The notes under the pieces: model-generated | What the model saw: only the letters and a program-made list of their open reading frames with translations | Told to the model about the DNA's origin: nothing | The model's database searches: none | Origin: Candidatus Omnitrophota bacterium | GTDB lineage: Bacteria; Omnitrophota; Gorgyraeia; Zapsychrales; Zapsychraceae | Assembly: GCA_023247445.1 (NCBI GenBank) | Contig: JAHFGL010000021.1 | Coordinates: 1-39,630, forward strand | Length of the DNA stretch: 39,630 bases | Direction: 5' to 3' | Part shown: positions 1-31,441 of the stretch, one piece after another | Numbering within the stretch: the stretch's first letter is position 1 | Layout: each line of letters begins with the position of its first letter | Program-made: the position numbers and the translations under genes

Positions 1-807
1 GGATTTTTATTAGGTGATGCGCCAGCGGTTATGCGCGGGCCGATTGTTACCCGTTACGTCCAGCAGATTTTACTCAACACGGCCTGGGGTGAACTCGATT
101 ATTTATTTATCGATATGCCGCCGGGAACAGGGGATGTGCAATTAACCATTACGCAGACTATCCAACTTAGCGGGGCCGTTATTGTGACAACCCCGCAGAC
201 GCTTTCTCTAATTGATGTCTCGCGTGGAATCTTAATGTTTGAAAAAGTCAATGTGCCTATTTTGGGAATCATTGAAAATATGGCGTACTTTATCTGCGAT
301 CAGTGCGATAAAAAACATTACATCTTCGGAGAGCAGGGGGCAGCGCAGCTTCAAAAACGTTTTGGCGTTGAGATCCTGGCCCAATTACCGCTGTTGGCGC
401 AACTAGGGTTAAAAATTGATAAACCTTTAGCTAATGATTTTATTATGAGGGCGGTTGATAAAGTTGTTATGGCTCTGGGGAAAAATAGTATTTTACAAAA
501 GCAAGTGCCGCAGATTCAGTTTAACGCCGAAAGAATAACATTAAATTGGACGGATGGAACACAAATGACCGTTAGTAATTCAGATCTTCGTTTAAGCTGC
601 CAATGTGCCCTATGCGTTAACGAATTAACAGGGAAACAAATATTACAGCCAAAAGATGTTCGAGCTGATATTGCGCCAATTGAAATTACACCACTGGGCA
701 ATTACGCCATCGGCGTTGTCTGGAATGACGGACATTCCTCAGGAATCTATCCCTACGATATTATTCGACAAATTGCCAACGATACGATCCAATCCAATAA
801 AGGTTAA
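1..807 (+). CDS. Mrp/ApbC-type Fe-S carrier ATPase fused to DUF971 (5' end missing)
   Basis: The frame is open from base 1, so only the last 268 residues are seen and the Walker A end lies outside the window. Residues about 30-150 carry the Mrp/NBP35 signatures: the IDMPPGTGD segment, a TTPQ segment, and a CxxC pair in ICDQCDKKHYIFG that binds the bridging Fe-S cluster in this family. From about residue 170 to the end is a DUF971 (GBBH-like N-terminal) domain with an RLSCQCALC segment and a final YPYD block. Mrp proteins bind and transfer Fe-S clusters in the cytoplasm. Mrp-DUF971 fusions occur in other bacteria; the role of the second domain is not known to me. The stop overlaps the next start by one base (TAATG), so it is cotranscribed with the glycan locus, although a functional link is not evident. 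Confidence 0.9.
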   Translation, partial: GFLLGDAPAVMRGPIVTRYVQQILLNTAWGELDYLFIDMPPGTGDVQLTITQTIQLSGAVIVTTPQTLSLIDVSRGILMFEKVNVPILGIIENMAYFICDQCDKKHYIFGEQGAAQLQKRFGVEILAQLPLLAQLGLKIDKPLANDFIMRAVDKVVMALGKNSILQKQVPQIQFNAERITLNWTDGTQMTVSNSDLRLSCQCALCVNELTGKQILQPKDVRADIAPIEITPLGNYAIGVVWNDGHSSGIYPYDIIRQIANDTIQSNKG

Positions 808-1949
808 TGCAGAAATCTAAAATAAAAGAATATTACCCCTTCCTTGACGGATTGCGCGGTATATCGATTTTATGGGTGCTTGGGTTGCACATTCTTTTAT
901 TCTTTGATTTAAAATCAATCTTGGGTTCTTACTATTGGATTGTTTATAAATTCTTTTCTATTGGCCATTTGGGTGTTGATATTTTCTTTGTCTTAAGCGG
1001 CTTTCTCATCACCGGCTTATTACTTGATGACTTATCAGATCACGTCCGTTTAAAAAGATTTTATCTTAGGCGGTCATTTAAAATTCTGCCGCAATATCTT
1101 CTCGTAGTCCTCACCGGATTTATTTTCTTAAAACTTGGGGCGTTCCCACCCATCAAAGGGGCCATCGAAATAAATCCAACACTCTCAAACCAGTCCACTC
1201 TGAGTTTTATTTTGTTTATTCAAAATTATATTCCAGGTTCAATTATTCTTATGCACACCTGGTCTCTGGCAATCGAAGAACATTTTTACCTTCTTTATCC
1301 CGTCTTATTAATTTTTATATGTTTTTTCACAAAAAACATACCAGCACGATATCGATGCTTACCAATTATTCTATGGATCCTTATCATCATTGTTAATATT
1401 GTTCGCTATTATCATTTTGCCAAAAGCCCGCCTGAAATATCTCTTCTAAATTGGGGGGACTTAATCAAAACCTTCCATACTCACATACGTGCTGATGCTT
1501 TAATGTTTGGATGCCTCATTAAAATCTACGAACATCAAAAAATATTTGATTCATTTAAAAATCATCGAGTTTTAATATCAAGCTGTTGTGTTCTTATTTC
1601 ACTCGCTATTTATTCTTGGTTCTTCTGGAAAGGATTTTCATTCTCAAGCTGGTACGCTTACACACTGGCCTATATCGCTCCCGGATTATTGATCATCGCT
1701 TGTCTCCATTCCTTCGCATTCCTCAAGAATATATTTCAAAACTATTTTTATGTCTGGGTTGGGAAAAATTCTTACGCCATTTATCTTTGGCATTCGCTTC
1801 TGATCTGGCCGTTTGCGTATTTATTCATGAAGAATCAATCTCTAACTTGGATTCTTCTCTATATTTTGGCATCACTTTTGATTGGGATGCTAAGCACAAA
1901 AATCATTGAAAAATATTTTTTAGACCTACGTAACAAACTTGTTCCTTAA
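807..1949 (+). CDS. Acyltransferase-3 family integral membrane O-acyltransferase
   Basis: This 380-residue polytopic protein has the family hallmarks: FLDGLRGISILWVLGLH near the N-terminus with the conserved H, then GHLGVDIFFVLSGFLITGLL, RRSFKILPQY, and WSLAIEEHFYLLYP around residue 155. Length and about ten hydrophobic segments fit the OafA/NodX/YrhL group, which moves acetyl or other acyl groups across the membrane onto sugars or other surface molecules. It has no extra C-terminal SGNH domain, but a separate SGNH-like gene occurs at 14270. Position at the head of a glycosyltransferase/exporter locus suggests it decorates the exported glycan. The acceptor cannot be told from sequence. Confidence 0.92.
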   Translation: MQKSKIKEYYPFLDGLRGISILWVLGLHILLFFDLKSILGSYYWIVYKFFSIGHLGVDIFFVLSGFLITGLLLDDLSDHVRLKRFYLRRSFKILPQYLLVVLTGFIFLKLGAFPPIKGAIEINPTLSNQSTLSFILFIQNYIPGSIILMHTWSLAIEEHFYLLYPVLLIFICFFTKNIPARYRCLPIILWILIIIVNIVRYYHFAKSPPEISLLNWGDLIKTFHTHIRADALMFGCLIKIYEHQKIFDSFKNHRVLISSCCVLISLAIYSWFFWKGFSFSSWYAYTLAYIAPGLLIIACLHSFAFLKNIFQNYFYVWVGKNSYAIYLWHSLLIWPFAYLFMKNQSLTWILLYILASLLIGMLSTKIIEKYFLDLRNKLVP

Positions 1950-1955
1950 CTAAAA

Positions 1956-4019
1956 ATGCTTACGAAATCCTCATGGTATTGCAAAAATAAAGATGGTAAC
2001 CGGATTCTTTATCTTAGATTCTTTTTTTTCAATATCCTCTTAGCTACAACATTTATATTCTCCCATAAAATATTTGACAATAATTTCTCTATCCCCAGCG
2101 CTGTCTTCTGGGTAGGCCTCATGATGGCGCTCCCACTCGGAGCCGCACTTGGAACACGATTAAAAGAACAATCAGCAAAAATCCTCATTCTATTTTTATT
2201 TAGTTTTCTTTGGTTGATCGTAAGTAGCGCCCTCTATGTACATTTAATTCTTCCTTCGTTAGGCTCATTTGATCCAACCGGTGGTTTTCTCTTTAAAGAA
2301 ATTGCCAAACATTTCTTAGCCTGGAGTTCTTTTCTGGGGCTCATCGCGCTTGTAATTTTCTTTCCCTTGTGGCTGGTGATGGGATTATTCGAGATGCATC
2401 TTTATTTAAGTTTAATAAAAAGACCGCCACCAACCCAGTGGTTAGCCTATTTAAGCAGTCTAACCGGATTATTTGTTGGGCAGGGGATCTGCTTTTTTCT
2501 TTTACCTTCGCCGCAGCCTTTTTGGATTGGGATAATTATTCTCTTAAGTTTTATTTTTTATAGTTCCATTTCATATTTTAAATGGTCATGGCCAAAGATC
2601 ATTTTGATATTTCTTCTTGGGATATGCTTACTCGCAGAAAACGGATATGTCAAAAATTCTTTGATGGTTCATAAAAGCGTTAATCCAAAAAGCCAAGCGC
2701 ATGTTCTCTATGATCAATGGATGCCTCATATGCGTCTGACGGTCGTTAAAAATAACGATCGATTATTTGGCTATTACAACGGTGTCTTTCATTGGGTTTC
2801 GAAAGATTCTAATTCTTCCCAGTGCTTTGCCATTGATCCTCTCATTAGCCATCTTTTAACTGATGATGCAAAGGTTGCGATTATTGGGGCAGGAGGAGGG
2901 AGCCAGTTAAATCCATTTCTTGAACATCAGCCCAAACATATTTATGCGATTGATATTGTTCCACATTTGTCGACAACCTTAAGTCAATTAGGCGTTAGTT
3001 CTTTTCTTGATCCAAGGGTTACATCGGTGACCAAGGATGGTCGAAAATTTATTGCAGAAAGCCAAGAACAATTTGATCTTATTTTTCTCCCCTTTACCGA
3101 AAGTATATTTAAATTAAGTAAAAGTCTTTTTGAACCGGCTGATCATCTCTTTACCTTAGAAGCGATAAAAGATTACCAAGCGCACCTTAAACCAAATGGA
3201 GTGATTATTATTAAAAAGGCTTTGTTATTTCCAAAGCTTTCTTTTGTCATGGCCAATTATGCCAAAACAATGCAAAAAGCAGGATTAAAAGTGGGCTATT
3301 GGACCAATGATTGTGTCGCAATTCTTTTAGGAGCCAAAGATGATGCGACACTCACGAAGGCAAGCCAAATCCTTAATTCCTCGCCACTGATCACCCACAA
3401 AGATACTCCTCAAACAGGAGTCATTTTACGTGATGATAAACCATTTTTTGCTAGTGTCATGTTCACGCCGCGAATAGTTTATGCTCTCGGAGTTATTGGA
3501 ATCGTGTCTTGTCTTTTAATATTCTTTTTCTGTTTTTATTCTCAAAAACGAATTCTCTTTCCTGCGATTCTTTGTGGCCTTAACTACACATTAATTTTAT
3601 TATCCATGCAGCTATTAATGTTTTTCCAAATTGATAATCCTCTAGAAGCCACAATGATAGGTAGCTTTCTATTCTTGGGAATCGTCTGGATCGGTACATT
3701 GTTATACAAAAAAAGAATGATTCTATTTATAATAACGCTGTTAATTCTTATCGCTATTTTAAATAAATTTTTGCCCGGCCCCTTAGGCGTCTTAGGGCTG
3801 TTAGGTCTCTGGAGTGGGGGATTCTTCCCAAGACTCATCCACTCCTATCAAGATCAGTTAAAAAAACTTCTTATTTGTGATGGACTTGGGGCCGCCCTAG
3901 CGGGTGTCCTTTATTTTCTCATTCCAACGGTGGGTGGAATTAAATTATTTCTTATTGTAGTTTATATTATATTTTTTATAACCTTTTGGCAGGTTAATCG
4001 GGCTGATAAAATACAGTGA
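1956..4019 (+). CDS. Multi-TM protein with internal spermidine-synthase-like domain
   Basis: This 687-residue protein has three parts: about seven hydrophobic helices (residues 1-230), a soluble spermidine synthase-like/SAM-fold domain (about 245-460) and a second set of about seven helices. The central domain has the nucleotide-binding loop VAIIGAGGGSQ followed by an acidic strand end in YAIDIVP, and FDLIFLPFTES in place of the usual catalytic aspartate block. It therefore probably binds a SAM-like ligand but need not make polyamines. Membrane-embedded spermidine synthase-like proteins are common and mostly uncharacterised. The start follows the acyltransferase stop by 6 bases, and its TGA overlaps the GTG start of the next gene by 4 bases. 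Function beyond aminopropyl- or methyltransferase-like is not assigned. Confidence 0.8.
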   Translation: MLTKSSWYCKNKDGNRILYLRFFFFNILLATTFIFSHKIFDNNFSIPSAVFWVGLMMALPLGAALGTRLKEQSAKILILFLFSFLWLIVSSALYVHLILPSLGSFDPTGGFLFKEIAKHFLAWSSFLGLIALVIFFPLWLVMGLFEMHLYLSLIKRPPPTQWLAYLSSLTGLFVGQGICFFLLPSPQPFWIGIIILLSFIFYSSISYFKWSWPKIILIFLLGICLLAENGYVKNSLMVHKSVNPKSQAHVLYDQWMPHMRLTVVKNNDRLFGYYNGVFHWVSKDSNSSQCFAIDPLISHLLTDDAKVAIIGAGGGSQLNPFLEHQPKHIYAIDIVPHLSTTLSQLGVSSFLDPRVTSVTKDGRKFIAESQEQFDLIFLPFTESIFKLSKSLFEPADHLFTLEAIKDYQAHLKPNGVIIIKKALLFPKLSFVMANYAKTMQKAGLKVGYWTNDCVAILLGAKDDATLTKASQILNSSPLITHKDTPQTGVILRDDKPFFASVMFTPRIVYALGVIGIVSCLLIFFFCFYSQKRILFPAILCGLNYTLILLSMQLLMFFQIDNPLEATMIGSFLFLGIVWIGTLLYKKRMILFIITLLILIAILNKFLPGPLGVLGLLGLWSGGFFPRLIHSYQDQLKKLLICDGLGAALAGVLYFLIPTVGGIKLFLIVVYIIFFITFWQVNRADKIQ

Positions 4020-5761
4020 AAATTAAAGCCATTTTTTTATTATTCACGCTTATTGTCATATTATTCCTTGTTGCATCACCAGGACAAGACTTAACCAGCC
4101 ATTCTAAACATGAAGTCGAAGACTTCACCCTCTTAGATCACAATGGCAATTCTTATCATCTCTATTATAATTTGGGACAAAAAGCAGTTGTGCTTATGTC
4201 CTATGAGCTGGGCTGTTTAATTGCACGTCAATCCGTTATTACGCTAGAGCAACTTAGACAGCGCTATGAGAAAAAAGGATTTCAATTTATTTTAATTGAT
4301 GCAAGCAGAGAAGATCAAAGAGAGGCCTTACAAAAAGAAGTCAAAAAGCTTAAGATTCATATTCCAATTTTAATGGATGAATCGCAAATTGTTTCAGAAT
4401 CACTTGGACTCACGAGAACAGCCGAGGTTATTTTGATTGAACCCAAAAGCTGGCGTATTGTCTATCGTGGCCCAATTGATGATCAAAAAGAGTATTTACG
4501 GTTGGCCTTTGAATCTCTACGCTGGGGCTGGCCGCTTAAGGATAAAAAAGTGCCGACTAAGGGACGTTTAATAAAATTTGAAAACCCAGTTAAACAAATT
4601 TCTTACACTCAGGATGTGGTTCCAATACTTGAAAAACACTGCGTAGTATGTCACTACACGGATGGACCTGCTCCGTGGGCCATGACAGATTACAAAAAAA
4701 TAACAACATGGTCAAAAATGATGCGGGAGGCTCTGCGGGTAAAACGCATGCCACCACCATCCGCTGATCCTTATTATGGTGAATATCTTAATAATAACTA
4801 TTTAAAAGCCGATGAGCTACGAACGCTCATCCATTGGATAGAAAGTCAATGCCCAAAAGAAGAGAGCGAAGATCCAATACCTGCGATCGAAAAAGCTAGG
4901 GCGAAAAACCAGTGGCCCTATGGAGAACCCGATATTATTTTAACAGCGAAAAATATCCAGCATCTTCCCGCGACCGGTGTTCCTCATTGGCAATTTAATT
5001 TTTCAAAAGAGACGATTCCAAAAGATCTTTGGGCCAAAGCCATTGTTTATAAGCCAAGTACCAAACGAACAATTCATCATGCCTTAGCTATGACACCAGT
5101 AAAAAGTCCCTATCAAAATAGCCAACGGCCGTTTGATCAAGAAGGTGTTTTAAAATCTGATGAAGAACTTTTATGCGGTTATACCTCGCAATGGCAAGAA
5201 ATACCCTTTCCCCAAGGAACAGGAAAATTTCTCCCAAAAGGCTCCCGAATTAAGTTTGCAACGCACTATATAACTACCGGCAAACCAGAGACGGATCAAC
5301 CACAGTTAGGAATTTATTTGTCACAACAACCGCTTAAGCCGCTCATTTACATGTATATGCAAATGAATAAATTTAAAATTCCCAAAAAAACGCAGGCACA
5401 TCAACTGACCGCTCAACACACCTTTAAAGAAGGTGTCATGCTTTATGGGGTCAGCCCACACGCTCACTATCGAAGCCGCTCAGCGAAAGTTACCGCCGTA
5501 TATCCTGATAAAAATGAAGAAATTCTTCTTTCTGTCCCATCGTTTGACAGCGCCTGGGAAACGTTGCATCTATTTAAAAATCCAAAATTTATGCCGGCGG
5601 GAACAATCATCAAAGTTGAATCTACTTTTGATAATTCTATTTTTAACCCTAAGAATCCAAATCCTAATCAAGACGTTACCTTTAGCATGGAGCGCGTTGA
5701 AGGAGAAATGTTTTGGACGTTATTAGCCTATAGTGTGGTTGAAGAAAATGATCAAAAATAA
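4016..5761 (+). CDS. Redoxin / cytochrome c / PHM-like copper monooxygenase, copy 1
   Basis: A GTG start overlaps the upstream stop (GTGA). The 581-residue protein has an N-terminal signal anchor (residues 4-22), so the rest should be extracytoplasmic. Domain 1 (about 35-170) is a thioredoxin-fold redoxin with one cysteine, C67 in GCLIARQS, as in single-Cys AhpC/TSA-type proteins. Domain 2 is a small c-type cytochrome with heme motif C209-V-V-C212-H213 and a downstream KRMPPP that supplies the usual methionine ligand. Domain 3 (about 320-575) resembles peptidylglycine/dopamine-type type II copper monooxygenases: H354-H355 and H417 match the CuH ligands, H482-A-H484 and M565 (EMFW) the CuM ligands. 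This is the only copy in the array with a complete ligand set. Substrate unknown; residue matches are by motif, not by structural alignment. Confidence 0.85.
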   Translation: MKIKAIFLLFTLIVILFLVASPGQDLTSHSKHEVEDFTLLDHNGNSYHLYYNLGQKAVVLMSYELGCLIARQSVITLEQLRQRYEKKGFQFILIDASREDQREALQKEVKKLKIHIPILMDESQIVSESLGLTRTAEVILIEPKSWRIVYRGPIDDQKEYLRLAFESLRWGWPLKDKKVPTKGRLIKFENPVKQISYTQDVVPILEKHCVVCHYTDGPAPWAMTDYKKITTWSKMMREALRVKRMPPPSADPYYGEYLNNNYLKADELRTLIHWIESQCPKEESEDPIPAIEKARAKNQWPYGEPDIILTAKNIQHLPATGVPHWQFNFSKETIPKDLWAKAIVYKPSTKRTIHHALAMTPVKSPYQNSQRPFDQEGVLKSDEELLCGYTSQWQEIPFPQGTGKFLPKGSRIKFATHYITTGKPETDQPQLGIYLSQQPLKPLIYMYMQMNKFKIPKKTQAHQLTAQHTFKEGVMLYGVSPHAHYRSRSAKVTAVYPDKNEEILLSVPSFDSAWETLHLFKNPKFMPAGTIIKVESTFDNSIFNPKNPNPNQDVTFSMERVEGEMFWTLLAYSVVEENDQK

Positions 5762-7538
5762 TTTATTCCTACACATTCTAAAACCAATGATCATTTTCAT
5801 TTTGATGATCACCGTATTTCTTCTGATCAAAAATATTTCTGATTTTACGCCAGAGGATATGTTTAGTCTTTCAGAGAAAATAGAAAGTTTCAGTTTGCTT
5901 GATCAAGAGGGGAAGTACCATGAATTGTCTTATTATTCTGACCAAAAAGTCATCGTGATTGCTTCCTATGCAATAGATTGCCCAGAATCTGATCAGGCCG
6001 TAAGAATGTTAGAAAAAATAAAAAGAAAGTATGCAAAAAAAGACGGACAGTTTTTATTAATTGATGCCAATCCTGCTGATACCCGCGAAGCGTTACAACA
6101 AAAGGCAAAAATATCTAACATCGATATCCCCATTTTAATGGATGAAACTCAACTCATCTCGGACTCGTTAGGATTTACCCATGTCGGTCAAGTGGTCGTT
6201 ATTAATCCAAAGAATTGGGAGCTGATGTATCGTGCGGCGATAGATAACCGATATCTTCCTAAAGCGATAAAAGCTACTCTGTCAGGAAGAAAAATAAAGA
6301 CTCCATTAATAGATGTGCAAAATTGCATTATCCCCTATGTGAAGGATTCAGCAAAAATTTCCTATGAGCAGGATATCGTGCCTATTCTAGAAAAACATTG
6401 TATCGCTTGTCATAATAAAAATGGATCAGCCCCATGGACGATGACAAACTACGAGAAAATTAAAGGTTGGGCTCCCATGATTAGCGAAGTGGTTAAGACA
6501 AAAAGAATGCCTCCCTGGGGACCTGATTTATATTATGACCAATACACTAACTCAAATCATTTAACGATCATCGAGACACAAAAATTAATTCATTGGTTAG
6601 AACAGGGTTGCCCAAAAGAACCTCACGAAGAAGATACTCTGCCCAAAATTGAAGAAGAAGAGGCCAAGAAGAAACAAGGTTGGCCCTGGGGTGAACCTGA
6701 CATTATTGTTGCCGCACAGAGTGAAGAACAAATCCCTCCTAAAAAGATCTATGAATACGCGAAAGAAAGTGCCGGGAAAATTAACAATACAAAGGACCTC
6801 TGGGCAAGAGCGATTTTCTTTAAACCACAAAGTGTGAAAGCAACTAGAATCGCCAGTGCCTGGATTGATATTCAAGACCCAGAGCAAGTCCTGACAAATT
6901 CATCCATACAGCACTTTAGAACAAAAACATTGCTTGCCTACCACTCCTTTAACACTTTTGCATATCCGCAAATTTTTCCCAAAAACACAGGAGAATTTAT
7001 TCCCAAAGATTCAACCGTCACGTTTCAAACTCATTACAAAACAATTGGCAAGGCAGAAAAAGATCGACCACAGGTTGGCATTTATCTATATCATGGTGAT
7101 CCGCACACAATTAAACCAATCTATACCCGCGTCATTGAATTTAACGATATAAGTATTCCGGTAAATGTTAAGAATTATGAAATCACAACCTCACAGATTT
7201 TAGACCAGGATATCTATCTATATGCTTGCGGTTTTCATATGCATTATTTTGGTCGTTCAGGCAAAATGATTGCAACATATCCTGATGGCGACCAAAAAGT
7301 CCTGCTATCAATTCCTTATTATGATTATGACTGGATGACACCTTACTATTTTGTTACACCAAAGTTATTACCGAAGGGAACAAAGCTCACCCTAAAATAT
7401 ACTTATGATACTTCTGTGCAAAATCGCAAAAGACCTCCCGTAGGGGAAAAAGTACTTTATGGGACAAGTGGGAAGACAGAAATGTTGGGTGGGGCGATTA
7501 TTTATACACTTGCTGATGAAACGATCAAGCTACAATAA
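5748..7538 (+). CDS. Redoxin / cytochrome c / PHM-like protein, copy 2 (CuH pair lost)
   Basis: ATG 5748 is preferred over the in-frame GTG at 5733 because it limits overlap with copy 1 to 14 bases and puts a basic residue before the signal anchor. The 596 residues have the same order as copy 1: anchor (about 10-30), redoxin with a single DCP cysteine, heme motif C218-I-A-C221-H222, KRMPPW, then the PHM-like module. CuM-type ligands are present (H497-M-H499, M579) and the single CuH histidine is kept (H429 in THYKTIGK). The adjacent His pair of copy 1 is replaced by R367-I368 when aligned from the shared KP anchor. The two-copper reaction is therefore unlikely unless other residues substitute. 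Linked to both neighbours by close spacing. Confidence 0.83.
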   Translation: MIKNNLFLHILKPMIIFILMITVFLLIKNISDFTPEDMFSLSEKIESFSLLDQEGKYHELSYYSDQKVIVIASYAIDCPESDQAVRMLEKIKRKYAKKDGQFLLIDANPADTREALQQKAKISNIDIPILMDETQLISDSLGFTHVGQVVVINPKNWELMYRAAIDNRYLPKAIKATLSGRKIKTPLIDVQNCIIPYVKDSAKISYEQDIVPILEKHCIACHNKNGSAPWTMTNYEKIKGWAPMISEVVKTKRMPPWGPDLYYDQYTNSNHLTIIETQKLIHWLEQGCPKEPHEEDTLPKIEEEEAKKKQGWPWGEPDIIVAAQSEEQIPPKKIYEYAKESAGKINNTKDLWARAIFFKPQSVKATRIASAWIDIQDPEQVLTNSSIQHFRTKTLLAYHSFNTFAYPQIFPKNTGEFIPKDSTVTFQTHYKTIGKAEKDRPQVGIYLYHGDPHTIKPIYTRVIEFNDISIPVNVKNYEITTSQILDQDIYLYACGFHMHYFGRSGKMIATYPDGDQKVLLSIPYYDYDWMTPYYFVTPKLLPKGTKLTLKYTYDTSVQNRKRPPVGEKVLYGTSGKTEMLGGAIIYTLADETIKLQ

Positions 7539-7539
7539 T

Positions 7540-9252
7540 ATGCGGATCTATAAAAAATCTATTCTGACGTTTCTATTCATTATTTTATTTGCTGTATATT
7601 TTTACAAAAAAGAGGCCACTCATTTTAAAATCGAATCGCTTCCTATTGCAAACGACTTTGCTTTATTAGATCAAGCCGGAGAATTCCATCGCTTATCTTA
7701 CTATTCTGATAAAAGAGGAATTGTTTTAATTTCGTATGATCTAAATTGTCCAACCGCCCAGCAAAACCTTCTTACACTTAAACGCCTTAGCGATAAATAT
7801 CAGAAGAAAGGAATTAATTTCTTCCTTATTGATCCTCATAATACCCGCGGTGACCTCACTGCGAAAACAAAAAACCTTGAACTTAAGATTCCAATTTTAA
7901 TCGATGATGCCCAGGTTGTCTCCCACGCCTTAGGTTTTACCCATATTGGCGAAGTCATTGTTATTGATCCCAAAAACAGGCATGTCATGTATCAAGGCAA
8001 TGTTGATCATCTTTTCGTTGCCATTAAAAATCTTTTAGCTGGCAAGCCCACAGAAAGTCTGGCGAAAATGGATGACAACAAATGTTGGATTGTCCCCGAC
8101 AAAAACAATATCTCTTATCAACATGATATTGTCCCCATTCTACAGAAGCACTGTATTCAATGTCACAATAACAATGGGCCGGCTCCCTGGGCGATGACAG
8201 ATTATGAAAAAGTTAAAGGCTGGGCTCCCATGATCAAAGAGGTGATCATGACCAAGCGGATGCCGCCGCCTGTTGCTGATCTTTATTATGATGAATATGA
8301 AAATTTAAACTACCTAACACCAGATGAAACAAAAAAACTGATCCGTTGGTTAGAACAAGGTTGCCCCAATAAAATTCGACAAGAAGATCCTCTATTAAAA
8401 ATTCAAATGCAGGAAGAACAAAAGCAAACTAAATGGCCGTGGGGAGAACCCGATATTATTGTCACCGCACAAGAAGAGGAACAAATTCCAGCTCGCGGCG
8501 TTTATGAGCACGTTAAAGAGAATATTGGAAAGGTTAATAATTCTCAAAAATTGTGGGCAAAGGCCGTCTTTTTAAAACCTTCTAATCTTAAAGCCTCGCA
8601 ATCATGCCATGTGTGGATTGATGTTCCCCAAATATACAGTAGTGAAACGGCTCGTATTAACACAATTAAATCTAAAAACCTTCTGACGCATCGATCCCTT
8701 GCCCTAGAACAACAACCTTATCCAGAAGGAACAGGGAAGCTCATCGAAAAAAATGCCATCATAACGTTTATGAGTCATTATAAAACGGTTGGGAAGCCAG
8801 AAAAGGATTATCCAAGCTTAGGAATATATCTCTCGGATAAACCATTAAAACCTCTGCATCACTTTATTATGGGGAACAATACTTTTCAAATCCCCAAAGA
8901 GAATAATCACGTTGAACTCAATCACACTCAAGCAATTGAAACGGACATGATGCTTTATGGGGTAGGCGTCCATATGCATTATCTCGGTCGCAGCGCCAAG
9001 ATGATCGCTCAATTTCCTGATGGGAGGGAAACCGTTCTACTATCAATTCCTTTTCACGATTTGGATTGGGAAATTCCTTATTTCTTTAAAACGCCAAAAT
9101 TCATCCCTCAAGGTACAAAAATAACAATGAAATACGTATATGATAACTCTAAACAGAATCGTAAAAATCGTAATACCAACAAAAACTTTAAATTTGGAAC
9201 AGGCCTACAGGATGAAATGTTTTGGGGAATACTGATCTATGCTGACAAATAA
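7540..9252 (+). CDS. Redoxin / cytochrome c / PHM-like protein, copy 3 (CuH pair lost)
   Basis: ATG 7540 lies two bases after the copy 2 stop; in-frame ATGs at 7459 and 7516 would extend into copy 2 and give a poor leader. The 570-residue protein repeats the architecture: signal anchor, redoxin with one NCP cysteine, heme motif C205-I-Q-C208-H209, KRMPPP, and a PHM-like C-terminal module with H413 (SHYKTVGK), H478-M-H480 and M560 (DEMFW). The position of the CuH His-His pair reads Q-S; a C356-H357 pair lies two residues later and could be an altered metal site. It is more similar to copy 2 than to copy 1 by eye, for example HMHYxGRSxKMIA in both, suggesting a later duplication. Confidence 0.83.
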   Translation: MRIYKKSILTFLFIILFAVYFYKKEATHFKIESLPIANDFALLDQAGEFHRLSYYSDKRGIVLISYDLNCPTAQQNLLTLKRLSDKYQKKGINFFLIDPHNTRGDLTAKTKNLELKIPILIDDAQVVSHALGFTHIGEVIVIDPKNRHVMYQGNVDHLFVAIKNLLAGKPTESLAKMDDNKCWIVPDKNNISYQHDIVPILQKHCIQCHNNNGPAPWAMTDYEKVKGWAPMIKEVIMTKRMPPPVADLYYDEYENLNYLTPDETKKLIRWLEQGCPNKIRQEDPLLKIQMQEEQKQTKWPWGEPDIIVTAQEEEQIPARGVYEHVKENIGKVNNSQKLWAKAVFLKPSNLKASQSCHVWIDVPQIYSSETARINTIKSKNLLTHRSLALEQQPYPEGTGKLIEKNAIITFMSHYKTVGKPEKDYPSLGIYLSDKPLKPLHHFIMGNNTFQIPKENNHVELNHTQAIETDMMLYGVGVHMHYLGRSAKMIAQFPDGRETVLLSIPFHDLDWEIPYFFKTPKFIPQGTKITMKYVYDNSKQNRKNRNTNKNFKFGTGLQDEMFWGILIYADK

Positions 9253-9259
9253 AAAAATA

Positions 9260-9288
9260 TTAATAATTCATAAAACCTTTGATAAAAT
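9260..9288 (+). promoter_or_regulatory. Possible sigma70-type promoter before copy 4
   Basis: TTAATA at 9260-9265 and TAAAAT at 9283-9288 are separated by exactly 17 bases in the only real gap (48 bases) of the redoxin array. The start codon is 13 bases after the -10. The -35 is weak (4 of 6) and the region is AT-rich, so chance is a fair alternative. Confidence 0.35.
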
Positions 9289-9300
9289 GGGGCCTATTCT

Positions 9301-10170
9301 ATGCCTAAATATATTTTGATCCCATTAAGCCTGGGTTTATCATTCTTTTTGGTCTACACCTTTTTTACCTTCCCAAATAAATCCAATTTGCCGATTAAAG
9401 AAACGGTAGAAGATTTTACTTTGGCTGATCAACAAGGAGCACTGTATCAGCTATCTTCGTATGCAGGAAAGAAGGGGATTGTTTTAACTTCTTATGGTAT
9501 TGGTTGCCCCATCGCTCGATTTTCTGTTATTACACTTAAACAGCTGCGCGATCAATATGAGAAAGATGGGATTGCTTTTCTTCTTATTGATCCGGTTATG
9601 CAGGACAAAAAAGATGATATTATTGACGAATCCAAAGATTTTGGCATTGATATTCCTATTCTCATCGATGATTCTGGAGTCATTGCTAAATCCTTAAAGA
9701 TGGTCCGTACAGCTGAAACAATTTTAATTGATCCAAAAAATTGGACCATTGTGTATCGCGGTCCTGTAGATGATCATTTAGATTACGAAGTCCAACGAGA
9801 GAAGGCAAAAAACCATTATTTAAAATGGGCGATGGAATCTTTACTTAAACGAAGATCCGTGAAAATTTCTAAAGTTGAAGTTAAGGGTTGTCTTCTAAAC
9901 TTAGATTGGCATCTGTCAAAAGTTTCCTATCCGGACGATATTGTTCCAATCTTAGAAAAACGTTGCCTAGAATGCCACAACGCCAGAGGGGCAACGACAT
10001 TTATAGTGAACAACTATGAAGCGCTTTACGCCCATGCCGAGGGAATCAAAAAGGTGATTCGAACAAAACATCGGCCCATCCAGTGGAATGATATGACCGC
10101 AACAGAAATTAAGACATTAACGCAATGGTTAGAGAGTGGCATGCCTAAAGGCAGAGAGGTCAATCGTTAA
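9301..10170 (+). CDS. Redoxin / cytochrome c, copy 4, lacking the copper domain
   Basis: This 289-residue paralogue has an N-terminal anchor (about 4-22), the redoxin domain with a single cysteine in GIGCPIARFS, and the cytochrome segment with heme motif CLECH. It stops just after the cytochrome domain, so the PHM-like module of the other three copies is absent. The end is clean and in frame, not a frameshift remnant. The KRMPP segment that provides the heme methionine in copies 1-3 reads KHRPIQW here (H257), so the distal heme ligand has probably changed or been lost. It may be a partner or electron-transfer variant of its neighbours; that is inference. It is the only array member with a noticeable upstream gap and possible promoter. 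Confidence 0.83.
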   Translation: MPKYILIPLSLGLSFFLVYTFFTFPNKSNLPIKETVEDFTLADQQGALYQLSSYAGKKGIVLTSYGIGCPIARFSVITLKQLRDQYEKDGIAFLLIDPVMQDKKDDIIDESKDFGIDIPILIDDSGVIAKSLKMVRTAETILIDPKNWTIVYRGPVDDHLDYEVQREKAKNHYLKWAMESLLKRRSVKISKVEVKGCLLNLDWHLSKVSYPDDIVPILEKRCLECHNARGATTFIVNNYEALYAHAEGIKKVIRTKHRPIQWNDMTATEIKTLTQWLESGMPKGREVNR

Positions 10171-10174
10171 TATC

Positions 10175-10879
10175 ATGCCCGCACATCCAACCAATATTGA
10201 AATAAGCATCATTCTTCCGTGTCGCAATGAAGAAGAGTCTTTGGCCATTTGTTTACTCAACATTAAAGAAATCCTTCGTGAACAAAAGCTAACCGCAGAA
10301 ATTATTGTCTCGGATTCTTCCGATGATCAGTCGGCGACAATTGCCCGTCAACACAATGTCCTTTTGATTAAACATAATCAACGAGGTTATGGGCGAGCTT
10401 ATTTAGAAGGATTCAAAATAGCCACTGGAAAATTCTTATTCTTAGCTGATCCAGATGGCACGTATGATTTTAAAGAGATACCCCAATTTATTGATGCCTT
10501 ACAATCTGGCAATGATTTTGTTATTGGAAATCGTTTTGCAGGAGAAATTGCAAAGGGAGCGATGCCCTGGCATCATCAATACATTGGGAATCCGTTGTTT
10601 TCGTTTCTTGTACGATTTCTATTTAAAACAGAAATTCATGATGTTCATTGCGGGATGCGTGCCATTCGAAAAGAGGCTATCGATAAACTAAACTTAAAAA
10701 CAACAGGGATGGAATTTGCTTCTGAAATGGTGATAAAAGCCATCCAAAATGGTTTGAAAATTAAAGAGTTGCCGATTGATTATCACAAACGTTATGGCCA
10801 ATCAAAACTGCGTTCCTTTATCGATGGATTTAGACACTTAAAATTAATAATGACCAATTTAGTTTTTAAAGAGGAATGA
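10175..10879 (+). CDS. GT2 glycosyltransferase, polyprenyl-phosphate mannose/glucose synthase-like
   Basis: ATG 10175 is chosen over the in-frame GTG at 10136, which would overlap the upstream gene by 35 bases; GAGAGGT upstream can act as ribosome site. The 234-residue soluble GT-A fold protein has ISIILPCRNEEESL, the SDSSDDQS loop, the metal-binding ADPDGTYDF motif and HCGMRAI, all typical of DPM1-like enzymes. These transfer a hexose from a nucleotide sugar to a polyprenyl phosphate on the cytoplasmic face. There are no C-terminal helices, so it is the short DPM1 type. The two GT-C-like membrane proteins directly downstream are natural consumers of such lipid-linked donors. Confidence 0.87.
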   Translation: MPAHPTNIEISIILPCRNEEESLAICLLNIKEILREQKLTAEIIVSDSSDDQSATIARQHNVLLIKHNQRGYGRAYLEGFKIATGKFLFLADPDGTYDFKEIPQFIDALQSGNDFVIGNRFAGEIAKGAMPWHHQYIGNPLFSFLVRFLFKTEIHDVHCGMRAIRKEAIDKLNLKTTGMEFASEMVIKAIQNGLKIKELPIDYHKRYGQSKLRSFIDGFRHLKLIMTNLVFKEE

Positions 10880-12000
10880 ATCAAACAAATAAAATAACGG
10901 CTGCTATTGCTTGTTTTTATCTCATCTATATTTTTTTATTTCTCGCCAAATTCAATTTTAATCCCAGCGCCACGATCGAATTAACAACAACGCATGCCCA
11001 AGAGTATGGGAGGCCTTTGCCAACAAACCTTATCGTGCAACAAGAAGGCCATGGTCATGACGGGCAATATTATTACATGATCGCAACTGACCTAAGTCAT
11101 GAACATATTACCGTAAAAACTTTTCGTCATCAGCGCATCCTGTATCCTTTGTTGGCCAATTCTTTAGCCTTTGGACAAATAGCCCTGATCCCGTGGACCT
11201 TACTTATCATTAATTATGTGGCCACCCTTCTTGGAACATATATTTTGTTACTCATTTTGCAAAAGCATGGGGCGAATCTTAATCTGGCCTTTGTATGGGC
11301 GCTTAATGTTGGGTTCTTAAATAGCATTTTGCGTGACCTAACCGGCCCACTGATGTTTCTTTTTATTCTACTTTTTATATATTTTCATGAAAAACAAAAA
11401 CTTAAACTATCGAGCTTCTATTTAAGCTGTGCTCTGTTAACCAATGAGCTGACGTTATCGATTATTTTTCCCTTATTATTAAGTTTATCCATTCAAAAAG
11501 ATTACAAGAAAATTAAAATCTACTCTTGGCCGCTTATTGTTCTATTTATTTGGCAAAGCATTCTCTTCCTACGATTTGGCCATTTTCCGCTGGTGACAAG
11601 CGCTGGAATGCTTTGGCACTTTACCAGTATGGATTTTCTTGGTGTCATTAGTAAAATCGACATCATGCAAGGCCTTCGCAGCCTATATCATCAAATTCCT
11701 GGATTGCCTGTCTTTATTTTTTGTATCATCCAATGCTGGCTGTTAGTACAGCCCAACAATAAAAAAGAGGGGATTTATTTCTGGATTTTAGTAGGTCAGT
11801 TGATTTATATTTTCATGGTCAAAGTCTGGGTTGGTGATCTTGATCGATATGCGGTTGGATTATTTTTGTTTTCACTACTTTATTCAACACAGAAAAAAGA
11901 GGCGTATAATCTTTTTTTAATTATACTTATGTTCGTTATGTCGGCTCTTTATTTTATTGAGCGCATTATTTTCTTTAAAATTAACTACCTTATAAGCTGA
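10876..12000 (+). CDS. GT-C-like polytopic membrane protein, copy A
   Basis: The ATGA overlap with the GT2 stop implies coupled translation. The 374 residues form about nine to ten helices. After the first helix a periplasmic loop holds HDGQYYYMIA and, some 25 residues on, HQRILYPLLAN. This DGQ(F/Y)YY ... (Y/H)QRILYP pattern is shared by a broad set of GT-C-type, PMT-like membrane proteins of surface glycan loci, where a loop Asp is the catalytic candidate. I infer a polyprenyl-phosphate-sugar-dependent glycosyltransferase, but the acceptor is unknown and no characterised close relative is recognised. It is a tandem paralogue of the next gene. Confidence 0.68.
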   Translation: MNQTNKITAAIACFYLIYIFLFLAKFNFNPSATIELTTTHAQEYGRPLPTNLIVQQEGHGHDGQYYYMIATDLSHEHITVKTFRHQRILYPLLANSLAFGQIALIPWTLLIINYVATLLGTYILLLILQKHGANLNLAFVWALNVGFLNSILRDLTGPLMFLFILLFIYFHEKQKLKLSSFYLSCALLTNELTLSIIFPLLLSLSIQKDYKKIKIYSWPLIVLFIWQSILFLRFGHFPLVTSAGMLWHFTSMDFLGVISKIDIMQGLRSLYHQIPGLPVFIFCIIQCWLLVQPNNKKEGIYFWILVGQLIYIFMVKVWVGDLDRYAVGLFLFSLLYSTQKKEAYNLFLIILMFVMSALYFIERIIFFKINYLIS

Positions 12001-13139
12001 TGAAAAAGAAACGAAATAACATTCTCTGGGTTGTTGGAATTTTCTATTTAATCTATATTTTCTTATTTCTATCTAAATTCCAATTTAATCCAAGCGCAAC
12101 CATTGAATTGTCTGCCAATCACGTTACAAAATACAATGCCCCGCTACCACCAAATCTGGTTGTTGAAATCAACCGCGATGGTTATGACGGGCAGTTTTAC
12201 TACATGATTGCCGCTGATCCCTGGCATAAACATATTGCCGTAACAACTAACTGGTATCAACGGATTTTATATCCAACATTAGCCCATATTTTATCGTTGG
12301 GCAATAAAGCACTTATCCCAATTATTCTTCTGCTGATTAATTTTGTCTCAATCATTTTGGGAACTTATGTTCTCTTACTACTTCTAGAAAAATATAAAGC
12401 CAATTTAAATCTGGCCTATATTTTTGCCTTTAATGTCGGCATTCTTATTGCCATCATTCGTGATTTGCCCGAACCACTACTGTGCCTATTTATTGTTCTA
12501 ACGATTTACTACATGGAAAAGAAAGAGGATGGAATCGCCATTATTTACTTGGCCGCTGCCCTTTTAACAAAAGAGATCGCCATTCTATTTGCTGCCGCTT
12601 TATTATTCTATTTGCTATTAAAACGTGAATTTAAGCGGTTCTTGATCTATCTGGGACCTTTGTTGCTTTATAGTTTTTGGTTGCTATCACTTTTCCTACG
12701 ATTTGACAAAATCGCGCTAATGGAAAGCATCGAGCGAGGAGGGATCCCATTTTTAGGAATCGCTCAATATTTCTTATGGCTAAAATTCCCCAACGACCTA
12801 AATGAGCTCTACACTTATTATTCAGCTTTACCCGTGTTGATATTTGTAGTAATTCAATGTGTTCTTGTATTTAAACAGAAAGCAAAATATCATTCTTACT
12901 ACTGGCTAAGTTTGACACTTCAAATTCTATTTCTTATCAGCCTAACAAAACATGCCTACACAGAATTAATTGATGGTTTAGGCCGCCAAGCGGTTATTTT
13001 ATTTCTATTTTCAATCTTGTTTCATGTCGAAAATAATCAGCAATATAATCGATGGCTCTTGTGGCTGATGATACTTATGTCGACTGGCTATTTCATTACA
13101 AAAATAATTATCTTTAAACCGCAATATTTTATTACGTAA
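12000..13139 (+). CDS. GT-C-like polytopic membrane protein, copy B
   Basis: The ATG shares its first base with the preceding TGA (TGATG). The 379-residue protein is clearly paralogous to copy A: both begin with YLIYIFLFL(A/S)KF then FNPSATIEL, and share the loop motif, here YDGQFYYMIAADPWHK and YQRILYPTLAH. About ten predicted helices follow. Copy B keeps GYDGQ where copy A has GHDGQ. Same family and role as copy A, presumably with a different acceptor or linkage after duplication. Confidence 0.68.
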   Translation: MKKKRNNILWVVGIFYLIYIFLFLSKFQFNPSATIELSANHVTKYNAPLPPNLVVEINRDGYDGQFYYMIAADPWHKHIAVTTNWYQRILYPTLAHILSLGNKALIPIILLLINFVSIILGTYVLLLLLEKYKANLNLAYIFAFNVGILIAIIRDLPEPLLCLFIVLTIYYMEKKEDGIAIIYLAAALLTKEIAILFAAALLFYLLLKREFKRFLIYLGPLLLYSFWLLSLFLRFDKIALMESIERGGIPFLGIAQYFLWLKFPNDLNELYTYYSALPVLIFVVIQCVLVFKQKAKYHSYYWLSLTLQILFLISLTKHAYTELIDGLGRQAVILFLFSILFHVENNQQYNRWLLWLMILMSTGYFITKIIIFKPQYFIT

Positions 13140-14273
13140 ATGAAAATCGCGATCTTCCATAACGCGCTGGACAATATCGGAGGGGCAGAAATTGTTGGGC
13201 TGACGCTCGCCCGTGAGCTTAAGGCGGATATTTACTCAACCAATATTGATCACGATAAAATCCAAAAGATGGGTTTTAGTAATATCAATATAAAATCCAT
13301 TGGAAAGATTCCCTTAAATGCGCCACTGCGGCAACAAGCTGCGTTAGCTCGGTTCCGCCATCTTAATCTGGGGAAAAAATATGATTTCTATATCATTGAT
13401 GGTGATTGGGCTATCTCAGCGGCGGTCAACCATAAACCAAATCTATGGTATGTTCATTCACCCATTCGTGAAATTTGGGATCTGTATGAATATACGCGGC
13501 AACATTCAGTCCCTTTTGAACTTCGCTGGATTTTTGATGCTTGGGTAAGAATTAATCGGCACTTAAACCGTAAGTACGTTACTCACGTAAACCAATTAGC
13601 GTGTAATTCTTTAAACACACAGAATCGGGTAAAAACATATCTTGGACGCGAGGCAACGATCATTCATCCACCGATTGAAACGACAAAGTTTCACTACCAA
13701 AGAAATGGTGACTTTTGGTTAAGCGTTAATCGCTTGATCACCCACAAACGCGTTGACCTTCAACTTGAAGCCTTTCGCCAACTTCCCAATGAACGATTAA
13801 TGATTGTTGGAAGCTATGAGCAGTCTCGACATTTCAAACGTTATGCTGACTATATTAAAAACATGAAACCCAACAACGTGGAAATCCGAAGCTGGGTGAG
13901 CCACGCAGAGCTCATTGATCTTTACGCGAACTGCAAAGGATTTATCACAACCGCCAAAGATGAAGATTTTGGCATGACTGCTGTTGAAGCCATGGCCGCT
14001 GGTAAATCCGTCATTGCCGTAAACGAAGGTGGATACAGAGAAACTGTGATCGCTGGAAAAACGGGAGAGCTTATTGATCACATTGAAGTTCCAAAACTTA
14101 TCCAAGCTATCCAAAAAATAGGAAAAAATCCCGAAATCTACAAAAGCGCCTGTCTTGCCCAAGCGCAATATTTTGATACGAAAATTTTTATAACGGCCAT
14201 TCAAAATCTCATCGATAAAAAACCAGCACCATCATCTGCCATCAAATATAAGCCAACTGAAATTTATCGATGA
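13140..14273 (+). CDS. GT4 family glycosyltransferase (GT-B fold)
   Basis: The ATG directly abuts the upstream TAA. The 377-residue protein has the N-terminal NIGGAEIVGLTLARE acceptor-side motif, a central linker (IHPPIETTKF, SVNRLITHKRVDL) and the family C-terminal motif EDFGMTAVEAMAAGK with the E275-x7-E283 pair that binds the donor nucleotide sugar. Length and order are normal for cytoplasmic GT4 retaining transferases such as mannosyl or glucosyl transferases. It most likely extends the glycan on its lipid carrier at the inner face of the membrane. Sugar specificity cannot be assigned. Confidence 0.9.
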   Translation: MKIAIFHNALDNIGGAEIVGLTLARELKADIYSTNIDHDKIQKMGFSNINIKSIGKIPLNAPLRQQAALARFRHLNLGKKYDFYIIDGDWAISAAVNHKPNLWYVHSPIREIWDLYEYTRQHSVPFELRWIFDAWVRINRHLNRKYVTHVNQLACNSLNTQNRVKTYLGREATIIHPPIETTKFHYQRNGDFWLSVNRLITHKRVDLQLEAFRQLPNERLMIVGSYEQSRHFKRYADYIKNMKPNNVEIRSWVSHAELIDLYANCKGFITTAKDEDFGMTAVEAMAAGKSVIAVNEGGYRETVIAGKTGELIDHIEVPKLIQAIQKIGKNPEIYKSACLAQAQYFDTKIFITAIQNLIDKKPAPSSAIKYKPTEIYR

Positions 14274-15283
14274 TAAACACCTTATTAAAGTTTGGACAAA
14301 AATATCCTCGAACAACTGCTTTTATCTGGGGAATAGTTTTTTGTCTAATAATTATTCTTTTGGTAGAGTTTATCCTAAGGACTTTACATGCTTCACAATC
14401 TTATGAGGCCAGTTTCACTTATCCAGCGACTTATCATACCCGCGATCAATTTGGGATTCGAAAGGCCGCACCCGGGCAACATCACGTCATATTAAAGAAT
14501 AAAATAAGCAATGAAGTTATTTATGATGTCACCTATTCAATTAATCCAAATGGAAGCAGAGTAACGCCGATCAAGAATATAAGTAGCCGAGATAAATTTG
14601 TTTTATTTCTAGGATGTTCTTTTACGTATGGCGAAGGGGTGGAAGATAACCAAACACTGCCGTATTATCTGGGAAGTTATACCAAAGAATATCAGCCCTA
14701 TAATTTTGGCTTTCATGGCCATGGGCCGTTCGATATTCTAGCGCAACTTGAAAATATAGATTTTAAACATGAAATAAAAGAGCCTAACGGAATCGTCATT
14801 TACAGCTTTATCGATGATCATGTTGAAAGGATGTTAGGGAGCATTAAGGTGATGCAATGGAAAGTAGCTGATCCTTATTATCAACAGACCACTCTTGGCA
14901 AATTTAAACGCAAAGAGACTTTTCTAACAGGCCGGCCGCTAGAAACCATATTTTATTATGTCCTGTCAAAAAGTAAGCTCTTGCAGGCACTAAAGTTCAA
15001 TTGGCCTGGGGTTCATCAACCTCAAATCAAGCAAGCCGCAGAAAGCATCCGACAGATGAAAGATAAATTCTCTTTGAAATATCCACATTCTTCCTTTTAT
15101 GTTCTCTTATATCCCGGTGAATTTACTCAACATTTAATACCATTTTTAGATCAAATGAATATAAAATATTTGGATTACACGAAGGAACCTTTTGATTATC
15201 TCAACAAAAATGACCAGCATCCTTCAGCCATGGCTTATAAAAAAATCGCAACGAAGATCACAAGGGACCTCAACTTAAAATAA
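14270..15283 (+). CDS. SGNH/GDSL-like membrane-anchored protein
   Basis: ATGA overlap with the GT4 gene. The 337 residues begin with one membrane anchor (about 16-37), leaving an extracytoplasmic SGNH-like domain. Block I is FLGCSFTYGEGVEDN with candidate nucleophile S117, a GFHGHGPFD segment can supply the glycine/oxyanion region, and the C-terminal DQHPSAMAYKKIA gives D315 and H317 as the Asp/His pair. Such domains act as O-acetylesterases or, as in AlgJ/PatB-type proteins, as acetyltransferases working after an acyltransferase-3-like membrane protein. The acyltransferase at 807 is an obvious potential partner. Direction of the reaction is not decidable. Confidence 0.75.
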   Translation: MINTLLKFGQKYPRTTAFIWGIVFCLIIILLVEFILRTLHASQSYEASFTYPATYHTRDQFGIRKAAPGQHHVILKNKISNEVIYDVTYSINPNGSRVTPIKNISSRDKFVLFLGCSFTYGEGVEDNQTLPYYLGSYTKEYQPYNFGFHGHGPFDILAQLENIDFKHEIKEPNGIVIYSFIDDHVERMLGSIKVMQWKVADPYYQQTTLGKFKRKETFLTGRPLETIFYYVLSKSKLLQALKFNWPGVHQPQIKQAAESIRQMKDKFSLKYPHSSFYVLLYPGEFTQHLIPFLDQMNIKYLDYTKEPFDYLNKNDQHPSAMAYKKIATKITRDLNLK

Positions 15284-15284
15284 T

Positions 15285-16148
15285 ATGTCTGCTCCAAAAG
15301 TTTCGATAATAATTCCTGTTTATAATGGGGCCCCAACATTAGGGCAATGCCTGCAATCCGTCTTAAATCAAAGCAATCCTGCTTTTGAGGTTATTGTGGT
15401 TGATAATAATTCAATCGATCAAACGAAAGATATTGCGATAGAGTTTCAAAGCGACTATCCAAACATTCAGTATGTTTTTGAACCTTTACGCTCAAGGGGA
15501 GCGGCCCGTAACGCTGGCATCATTGCCGCCCATGGCGAAATTATTGTTATGACCGATAGCGATTGCATTGTGCCATACAACTGGATTGAATCTTTAATTG
15601 CTCCGATTGTAAACGAAGGAGAAACCATTGTGATGGGCCACGAATACGATTTAAATAAGAATTTCTGGTCAAAAAGTATTCAAGAAGCAAATCAAAGCTT
15701 CTTTGGAAAATATTTAAATGGAAACTATATTACCGTTTTGGATACAAAAAATTTTGCGATTACGACAGATACAATGAAACAATTTATGTTTAATCCCAGT
15801 GTCGGGAATATCGAAGATTTCGAACTTTCCATTCGCTTGCGGGACAAAGTCAAAATACGTTATATTCCATCCATTAAAGTAGGTCATTACCACAAAAATT
15901 CGCTCGTATCTTGGTTTAAGCTAAACTTTAACCGCGGATATTGGGCGGGGATTGTTTTTCATATGCACAAAGAAAAAGAATTCATTCATAACGATACAAT
16001 GTTTGAGAGTCGCAAGCTAACTAATCTCATTAAACTGCCATTTTGGATGGCATTGCAACTGCTTAAAAACCCTTCTAAGAAAATTGGTTTTATTTTTTTA
16101 ACCGAAATAAGCTGGCGCGCCGGTCTTTATTGGGGAAGAAAATGCTAA
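15285..16148 (+). CDS. GT2 family glycosyltransferase, copy A
   Basis: The ATG follows the upstream TAA by one base. The 287 residues are a GT-A fold: VSIIIPVYNGAPTLGQCL at the N-terminus, VDNNSIDQTKD, RGAARNAGI, and the metal-binding MTDSDCIVP (DxD). A later IEDFELSIRLRDK block fits the acidic catalytic region of inverting GT2 enzymes. A moderately hydrophobic C-terminal segment may associate with the membrane. It is a tandem paralogue of the next gene, sharing TDSDCIVPxNWIE, LDTKNFA and the GHxHxxSL segment. Acceptor and donor unknown. Confidence 0.88.
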   Translation: MSAPKVSIIIPVYNGAPTLGQCLQSVLNQSNPAFEVIVVDNNSIDQTKDIAIEFQSDYPNIQYVFEPLRSRGAARNAGIIAAHGEIIVMTDSDCIVPYNWIESLIAPIVNEGETIVMGHEYDLNKNFWSKSIQEANQSFFGKYLNGNYITVLDTKNFAITTDTMKQFMFNPSVGNIEDFELSIRLRDKVKIRYIPSIKVGHYHKNSLVSWFKLNFNRGYWAGIVFHMHKEKEFIHNDTMFESRKLTNLIKLPFWMALQLLKNPSKKIGFIFLTEISWRAGLYWGRKC

Positions 16149-16996
16149 TACCTAAAGTCTCAGTTATTATCCCAGTCTATAATGGGGCAAAATCACTCGA
16201 AGAATGTTTAAACTCTGTTCTTAAACAAACTTATCCGCCTTTTGAAGTCATTGTGGTTGACAATCATTCAACCGATGAAACTAAAGAACTCATCCATAAA
16301 CTCAAAGCAAAGAATTCAATTGTTCGATATGTCTTTGAATTTGATCGCGGTCGCGGGAACGCGCGCAACACAGGGATTGGTTGCGCTTGTGGTGATATTA
16401 TCGCCATGACCGACAGCGACTGTATTGTTCCCCAAAATTGGATTGAGGCCTTGATCAACCCAATAATCACTAAAAACGAATCAATCGTTATGGGAAGCGA
16501 ATATGACTTAACCAACACGATTTGGTCCAGTCAAATTCAGGCAACTCAAGACTCATTTAAAGAAATGCATAGGGAAGGGGAGCATATTAAGATTCTTGAT
16601 ACAAAAAATTTTGCGGCTCGGAGGGATGTGTTTGCTCAATTCTTGTTTGATCCAATAATGAAAAGCCTCGAAGATTACGAATTCTCGCTACAAATTAGAA
16701 ATAAAATTCGTATCTATTATCTTCCACGGCATCAAGTAGGGCATTGGCACCCTTCGTCACTACTGACAATCTTTAAACTAAATCTTAACCGCGCGTATTG
16801 GGCAAAAAAAATATATACCAAACATCAAAATTTGACATTTATCACGAGCGAACCGATGTTTCAAAGTTTTCGAGCCACCAGCGCATTTATCTTTCCGATC
16901 TGGATAACTTTTCAATTTCTTAAACGTCCACTTCTTAAAGCTTGGTTTAACTTAGCCTCTGAGTTAGGCTGGAGAATCGGACTTTTATTAGGTTAA
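16142..16996 (+). CDS. GT2 family glycosyltransferase, copy B
   Basis: ATG 16142 is used because GGGGAAG lies just upstream; the in-frame TTG at 16130 is less likely. It overlaps copy A by 7 bases. The 284-residue protein has the same motifs as copy A: VSVIIPVYNGAKSLEECL, VDNHSTDETKE, RGNARNTGI, MTDSDCIVP and EDYEFSLQIRNK. Divergence is high enough that the duplicates probably differ in specificity. It is followed immediately by the UbiA gene (TAA then ATG). Confidence 0.88.
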   Translation: MLIPKVSVIIPVYNGAKSLEECLNSVLKQTYPPFEVIVVDNHSTDETKELIHKLKAKNSIVRYVFEFDRGRGNARNTGIGCACGDIIAMTDSDCIVPQNWIEALINPIITKNESIVMGSEYDLTNTIWSSQIQATQDSFKEMHREGEHIKILDTKNFAARRDVFAQFLFDPIMKSLEDYEFSLQIRNKIRIYYLPRHQVGHWHPSSLLTIFKLNLNRAYWAKKIYTKHQNLTFITSEPMFQSFRATSAFIFPIWITFQFLKRPLLKAWFNLASELGWRIGLLLG

Positions 16997-17809: not shown

Positions 17810-17819
17810 ATTTCCAGCT

Positions 17820-27632: not shown

Positions 27633-27638
27633 GGAAGA

Positions 27639-27667
27639 ATTATGCAATAAATACTTTTAATTGTCGA
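27639..27667 (-). promoter_or_regulatory. gshA operon promoter, probably leaderless
   Basis: On the - strand TCGACA (27667-27662) and CATAAT (27644-27639) are spaced by 17 bases, each one mismatch from the sigma70 consensus. The predicted start is near 27632, the A of the gshA ATG, and no Shine-Dalgarno sequence precedes that codon. Together these point to a leaderless gshA mRNA. Confidence 0.6.
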
Positions 27668-31440: not shown

Positions 31441-31441
31441 T

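Follow-up and report, generated by a model that had tools for sequence, protein, structure and literature searches.

What do four consecutive redox proteins do in the middle of a densely packed operon of glycosyltransferase genes? The question is raised by a contig from a Candidatus Omnitrophota bacterium (JAHFGL010000021.1, assembly GCA_023247445.1), whose 39,630 nucleotides are referred to below as the window. A reading of the sequence alone described four anchored proteins in an uninterrupted row, each with a single-Cys redoxin and a c-type heme domain and three with a copper module similar to that of PHM and dopamine beta-hydroxylase (DBH). It placed them inside a glycan export locus and proposed that they oxidize the exported polymer or its lipid. 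To our knowledge, ABC-exporter loci for O-antigen or capsule are not known to include redoxin-heme-copper proteins.

Domain architecture of the four copies

The row itself is confirmed by the ORF list, with four uninterrupted, paralogous open reading frames, c1 to c4, on the plus strand at positions 4016 to 10170. The first, c1 (4016 to 5761), contains an N-terminal helix, a redoxin domain, a heme c domain with the motifs CVVCH and RMPP, and a complete PHM-type copper module. The same architecture is found in c2 (5733 to 7538, with 5748 as a possible alternative start) and c3 (7540 to 9252). For c3, the start in the ORF list lies upstream, at 7459; 7540 is the most likely start by our reading of the open reading frames, as is 10175 for the GT2 gene that follows the array. 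The shorter c4 (9301 to 10170) consists of redoxin and heme c and terminates after the heme domain, without a copper module. These assignments are based on open reading frames, Pfam, and alignments for all copies, with AlphaFold2 (AF2) models for c1 and c2.

A hydrophobic helix at the N terminus of all four proteins, together with heme c and the thioredoxin-like domain, bears out the extracytoplasmic placement of the first reading. All four redoxin parts match Pfam AhpC-TSA above the gathering score (E values of 2e-12 to 2e-9). A strictly single-Cys redoxin is found only in c1, however, as a second cysteine is located near the domain end in c2 (VQNC), c3 (DNKC), and c4 (VKGC). Each copy has one CxxCH heme site, and the features resemble those of class I-type cytochromes c; the Pfam heme families score under the cutoff for the array copies. 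The Met of RMPP, probably the distal heme ligand, is present in c1 to c3, with Arg at the same place in c4, where HRPI replaces the motif. The array copies show 38 to 42% identity to c1, and c2 and c3 are 47% identical to each other. An assembly duplicate or artifact as the origin of the array is ruled out because the copies are only 38 to 47% identical.

Copper centers and descent of the array

The copper module of c1 to c3 comprises ∼280 residues. Searches with single sequences against Pfam Cu2_monooxygen and Cu2_monoox_C gave no match for c1 to c3 at an E value of 0.1, and since they missed the module, a family profile and structures were used instead. Cu2_monoox_C is matched by 39 of 48 family members at an E value of 0.01. 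A profile built from 38 members finds PHM and DBH among the PDB structures at E values of 2e-9 to 1e-7, and the motifs of the copper ligands coincide: HH, HY, HxH, and EM of the family fall onto VHH, VHY, HTH, and DEM of PHM. The AlphaFold2 models of c1 and c2 (mean pLDDT of 90.5 and 89.0, respectively) have rat PHM and human DBH as their best PDB matches in Foldseek, the structural comparison proposed at the outset, and their N-terminal parts match thioredoxin-like proteins. Normalized by target length, the TM-score to PHM is ∼0.6, at 9 to 15% identity. This score and the large rmsd would be expected of a remote relative whose two subdomains are mobile. The models predict a PHM-type two-subdomain fold for both c1 and c2.

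All six copper ligands are present in c1, with His354, His355, and His417 forming CuH and His482, His484, and Met565 forming CuM. Neither c2 nor c3 has the full set: the His pair of CuH is replaced by Arg-Ile in c2 and by Gln-Ser (followed by Cys-His) in c3, with all CuM ligands retained in both and the third CuH His in c2. Such losses are rare in the family. The CuM ligands, the third CuH His, CxxCH, and the Met of RMPP are found in all of 100 full-length members (c1 to c3 included), the first CuH His in 97, and the second in 98. The exceptions at the CuH pair are c2, c3, and one protein from Bacteriovoracaceae with Gln-His; the latter (locus L070, 111 to 1862) has a very long branch. In rat PHM, replacement of any one of the three CuH His residues by alanine yields an inactive enzyme (PMC6123673). 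As c2 and c3 lack CuH, the known two-copper mechanism of PHM is unavailable to them. Judged from the aligned ligands, the copies are not equivalent, with a complete dicopper center predicted only for c1, and the array may function as one mixed complex instead of four enzymes of the same kind. The copper module initially claimed for three copies is upheld by profile and models.

In the family tree, c1, c2, and c3 form one clade, with c2 and c3 as sisters, beside single copies from the same order. In the simplest history, a local duplication would have been followed by loss of CuH in the lineage leading to c2 and c3. Out of 52 near-invariant family positions, c1 to c3 deviate at 8 to 10, compared to 0 to 2 in the single copies of the order. 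The activity of c1 itself is not assured, given that it deviates at 9 of the 52. That c2, c3, and c4 are decaying, functionless duplicates of c1 is an improbable reading. It would account for the missing CuH of c2 and c3 and for the lost copper module and RMPP of c4, but all copies are open reading frames at 38 to 47% identity, so the duplications are old. Moreover, CxxCH is intact throughout, the CuM ligands persist in c2 and c3, c2 is folded confidently by AF2, and the retention of 42 to 44 of the 52 positions in c2 and c3 argues against simple decay.

The array represents a tandem expansion, specific to this lineage, of a bacterial family of periplasm-facing redoxin-cytochrome c-PHM fusions that is itself widespread. 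Within the order, 8 of 81 genomes carry the family, and the same eight were the only carriers among 384 sampled genomes of the phylum; a second genome with the array was found neither among the 81 nor among the 384. The array genome (2.29 Mb in 75 contigs, 95.6% complete) has a fifth family copy away from the array. In another genome of the order, G042, two copies are located on separate contigs. Elsewhere, the family is frequent in Gammaproteobacteria, Planctomycetota, Verrucomicrobiota, Flavobacteriaceae, and Acidobacteriota. No match indicated spread by plasmids, and no functional study of the fusion was found in the open-access literature.

Clustered copies, some of them adjacent, also occur in marine Gammaproteobacteria (e.g., L038, L042, and L056), where two or three copies lie within 20 kb (loci L022, L031, L033 to L042, L044, L045, L047, L048, L054, and L056). 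In L038, L042, L056, and relatives, the redoxin cysteine is replaced, often by Ser, with heme and both copper sites intact, a mirror image of the CuH loss in c2 and c3. Recurrent neighbors at the marine loci are a HupE/UreJ-type membrane protein, an NHL/ScyF-like protein, and an amidohydrolase, which form a metal-linked conserved cluster. A search for a PAL-like partner beside the gammaproteobacterial copies returned a common NHL-type protein, with one example giving a weak ScyF match. The HupE/UreJ-type neighbor, of a metal-transport family and present at many gammaproteobacterial family loci, fits an explanation of c2 and c3 as copper carriers or sensors, in which the remaining CuM-type site binds copper and supplies c1; retention of this His2Met site without CuH would fit as well. 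We consider this explanation very improbable, as no copper transport or chaperone gene was recognized among the scanned window genes and a carrier has no obvious need for heme and redoxin domains.

Operon position and the proposed glycan link

The array is part of an operon of 15 plus-strand genes (807 to 20078), in which most junctions overlap or have gaps of ≤6 nt. The first gene encodes an acyltransferase-3 family protein (807 to 1949) and the second, directly upstream of c1, a membrane protein with a spermidine-synthase-like (SpeE-like) domain (1956 to 4019), both assigned from open reading frame and Pfam. The array is contiguous and on the same strand as the glycosyltransferase genes, which belong to the remaining part of the operon (10175 to 20078, plus strand): GT2, two GT-C-type membrane proteins (a type given by our own reading, with no Pfam match), GT4, an SGNH-like protein, two further GT2 proteins, a UbiA prenyltransferase, and an FG-GAP/ASPIC protein. 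The position between an acyltransferase and glycosyltransferases is therefore correct on the downstream side, but the immediate upstream neighbor is the SpeE-like protein. This SpeE-like protein has no match in other genomes of the same taxonomic family; the FG-GAP/ASPIC (UnbV) protein (17787 to 20078) has none (E value of 1e-20) in the order's 80 other genomes.

The sole larger gap, of 48 nt, precedes c4 (9253 to 9300, plus strand). One promoter-like match from a consensus scan lies in it (9260 to 9288) and is no evidence of a promoter, such matches showing little excess over shuffled sequences (77 versus 64.5). Terminator-like matches number 31, versus 15.9 in shuffles, and the window scan found none between c4 and the first GT2 gene. 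No RNA elements were found in the window.

A convergent minus-strand unit (20072 to 22690) encodes a geranylgeranyl-reductase-like (GGR-like) flavoprotein, a Wzt-like ABC ATPase of 242 amino acids, and a Wzm-like ABC-2 permease, with Wzm/Wzt at 21204 to 22690; the two units meet at 20072 to 20078. Because the exporter genes belong to this convergent unit of the opposite strand, the array does not share a transcription unit with them and, as judged from gene order, lies beside the export transcript, not within it. Farther along the window, the minus strand encodes a glutathione synthesis pair (25372 to 27647), made up of an adjacent GshA-type glutamate-cysteine ligase (PF08886) and glutathione synthetase, and a radical-SAM-like protein adjoins a sulfite-oxidase-type molybdopterin-binding oxidoreductase at 29526 to 31488.

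The neighborhoods of relatives show a different picture. A phmmer survey with the window proteins near ∼75 family loci found no homologue of GT2, GT4, acyltransferase-3, the SpeE-like protein, or UbiA; instead, it returned generic ABC ATPases, ASPIC proteins (at two loci of Acidobacteria), and, next to a G042 copy, a GGR-like protein. Pfam scans of the neighbors likewise listed no GT2, GT4, or acyltransferase-3 among the 25 commonest families. A neighborhood of glycan genes conserved across the family was rejected on these two surveys. A targeted Pfam scan did recover a UbiA gene, missed by phmmer, beside one G042 copy. At this locus (L097, 1725 to 6662, contig 84 of G042), two P450 genes, the UbiA prenyltransferase, and the GGR-like flavoprotein are encoded on the strand opposite to the copy; UbiA and GGR-like genes are common to this locus and the window, and no P450 was found in the array genome. 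PMT_2, UbiA with GGR-like, or MBOAT genes are close by at a few Omnitrophota loci. Only PMT_2 was compared with the background: such glycosyltransferases lie near two copies in other genomes of the order versus ∼0.56 expected (P ∼0.11), which is not significant. The fifth copy of the array genome adjoins a DoxX/MauE gene and housekeeping genes; on this locus (L008, 11462 to 17920), it stands after the DoxX/MauE-type gene and before a secreted-looking protein of 1308 amino acids with NHL and Ig-like repeats.

Homologues thus occur in unrelated contexts in most genomes, against a family-wide role in glycan synthesis. This is, for the most part, the outcome that the first reading had named as grounds for dropping the functional link. 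As the fifth copy also lies elsewhere, any glycan link is specific to this array and based on position in one operon; in this form, it is partly supported. Alternatively, the four genes could form a generic set for extracytoplasmic redox reactions or for handling copper or peroxide, present in the operon by chance and without a part in making glycan or lipid. The varied contexts of family members elsewhere and of the fifth copy speak for such a set, which we nevertheless regard as rather unlikely, since the four copies stand uninterrupted and nearly gapless between operon genes and differ from the rest of the family much more strongly than the single copies of the order do. That the array oxidizes the exported glycan or lipid of the operon, as first proposed, is plausible from its position, but gains nothing from the homologues, which mostly lie in unrelated contexts.

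Proposed function and comparison with known systems

The explanation we favor, tentatively and at somewhat less than even odds as a whole, assigns different roles to the copies. As the most likely catalytic member, c1 would be an O2-dependent dicopper monooxygenase, a reaction suggested by its fold and ligands. The role of ascorbate as electron donor to CuH would be taken by its fused heme c, and a C-H bond of the substrate would be hydroxylated at CuM. c2 and c3 would be non-equivalent partners, either CuM-only subunits fed directly by heme or pseudo-enzymes for substrate binding or electron relay, with c4 as a redoxin-heme accessory. The substrate is probably part of the operon's cell-surface glycan or lipid, because the array is embedded among the acyltransferase, glycosyltransferase, and UbiA genes of one packed operon. 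A bolder version appears quite improbable. It would make the array an oxygenase complex that modifies surface glycans or lipids, with c2 and c3 as oxygenases that use a single copper (CuM only) and are driven directly by the heme c that each carries; the PHM/DBH fold is not known to work in this way. Oxygen chemistry with heme c is feasible as judged from the gene content of the array genome, where genes for a heme-copper oxidase and for a cytochrome c assembly protein are present. Within the order, a heme-copper oxidase is found in 7 of 8 family carriers versus 26 of 73 noncarriers (P = 0.007, with kinship ignored); cytochrome assembly genes show no enrichment (6 of 8 versus 41 of 73; P = 0.46).

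If c2 and c3 are active without CuH, the electron-transfer copper of PHM and DBH would be replaceable by a covalently attached heme, and natural CuH-less enzymes would be available for study. A true operon link would reveal a new way of tailoring a bacterial surface polymer or lipid by oxidation. If neither applies, the array documents a widespread, uncharacterized redox fusion family that diversifies by losses of single centers.

PHM (PDB 1PHM and 1OPM) and DBH (4ZEL) have the fold in common with the array copies, and c1 contains all six of their copper ligands; in contrast to both, the array copies are fused to redoxin and heme c, and c2 and c3 lack CuH. Animals make amidated hormones with the PHM-type copper oxygenase. 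The clamp for the peptide carboxylate in PHM, which we take to be Arg240, Asn316, and Tyr318, is aligned with Ser, Trp, and Leu in c1, so peptide amidation by c1 is unlikely on the aligned residues. The closest relatives are bacterial redoxin-cytochrome c-PHM fusions with the same domain order as c1 to c3, the best matches showing 28 to 42% identity over the full length; Acidobacteriota have a form without redoxin. Unlike c2 and c3, nearly all these fusions retain the CuH pair, and several gammaproteobacterial copies lack the redoxin cysteine. The fusion family is already known by its domains, widespread, and usually located away from glycan genes. For the redoxin part, the best structure and profile matches are the thioredoxin-like proteins 2CVB, 2YWI, and 3U5R, which share a single active cysteine of the CPxV type and a later GCxI cysteine; they differ as single-domain proteins, and the second cysteine is lost in c1. 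Wzm/Wzt loci for O-antigen or capsule resemble the present one in having glycosyltransferases, an acyltransferase, and an ABC-2 exporter close by, but here, the exporter is on the other strand.
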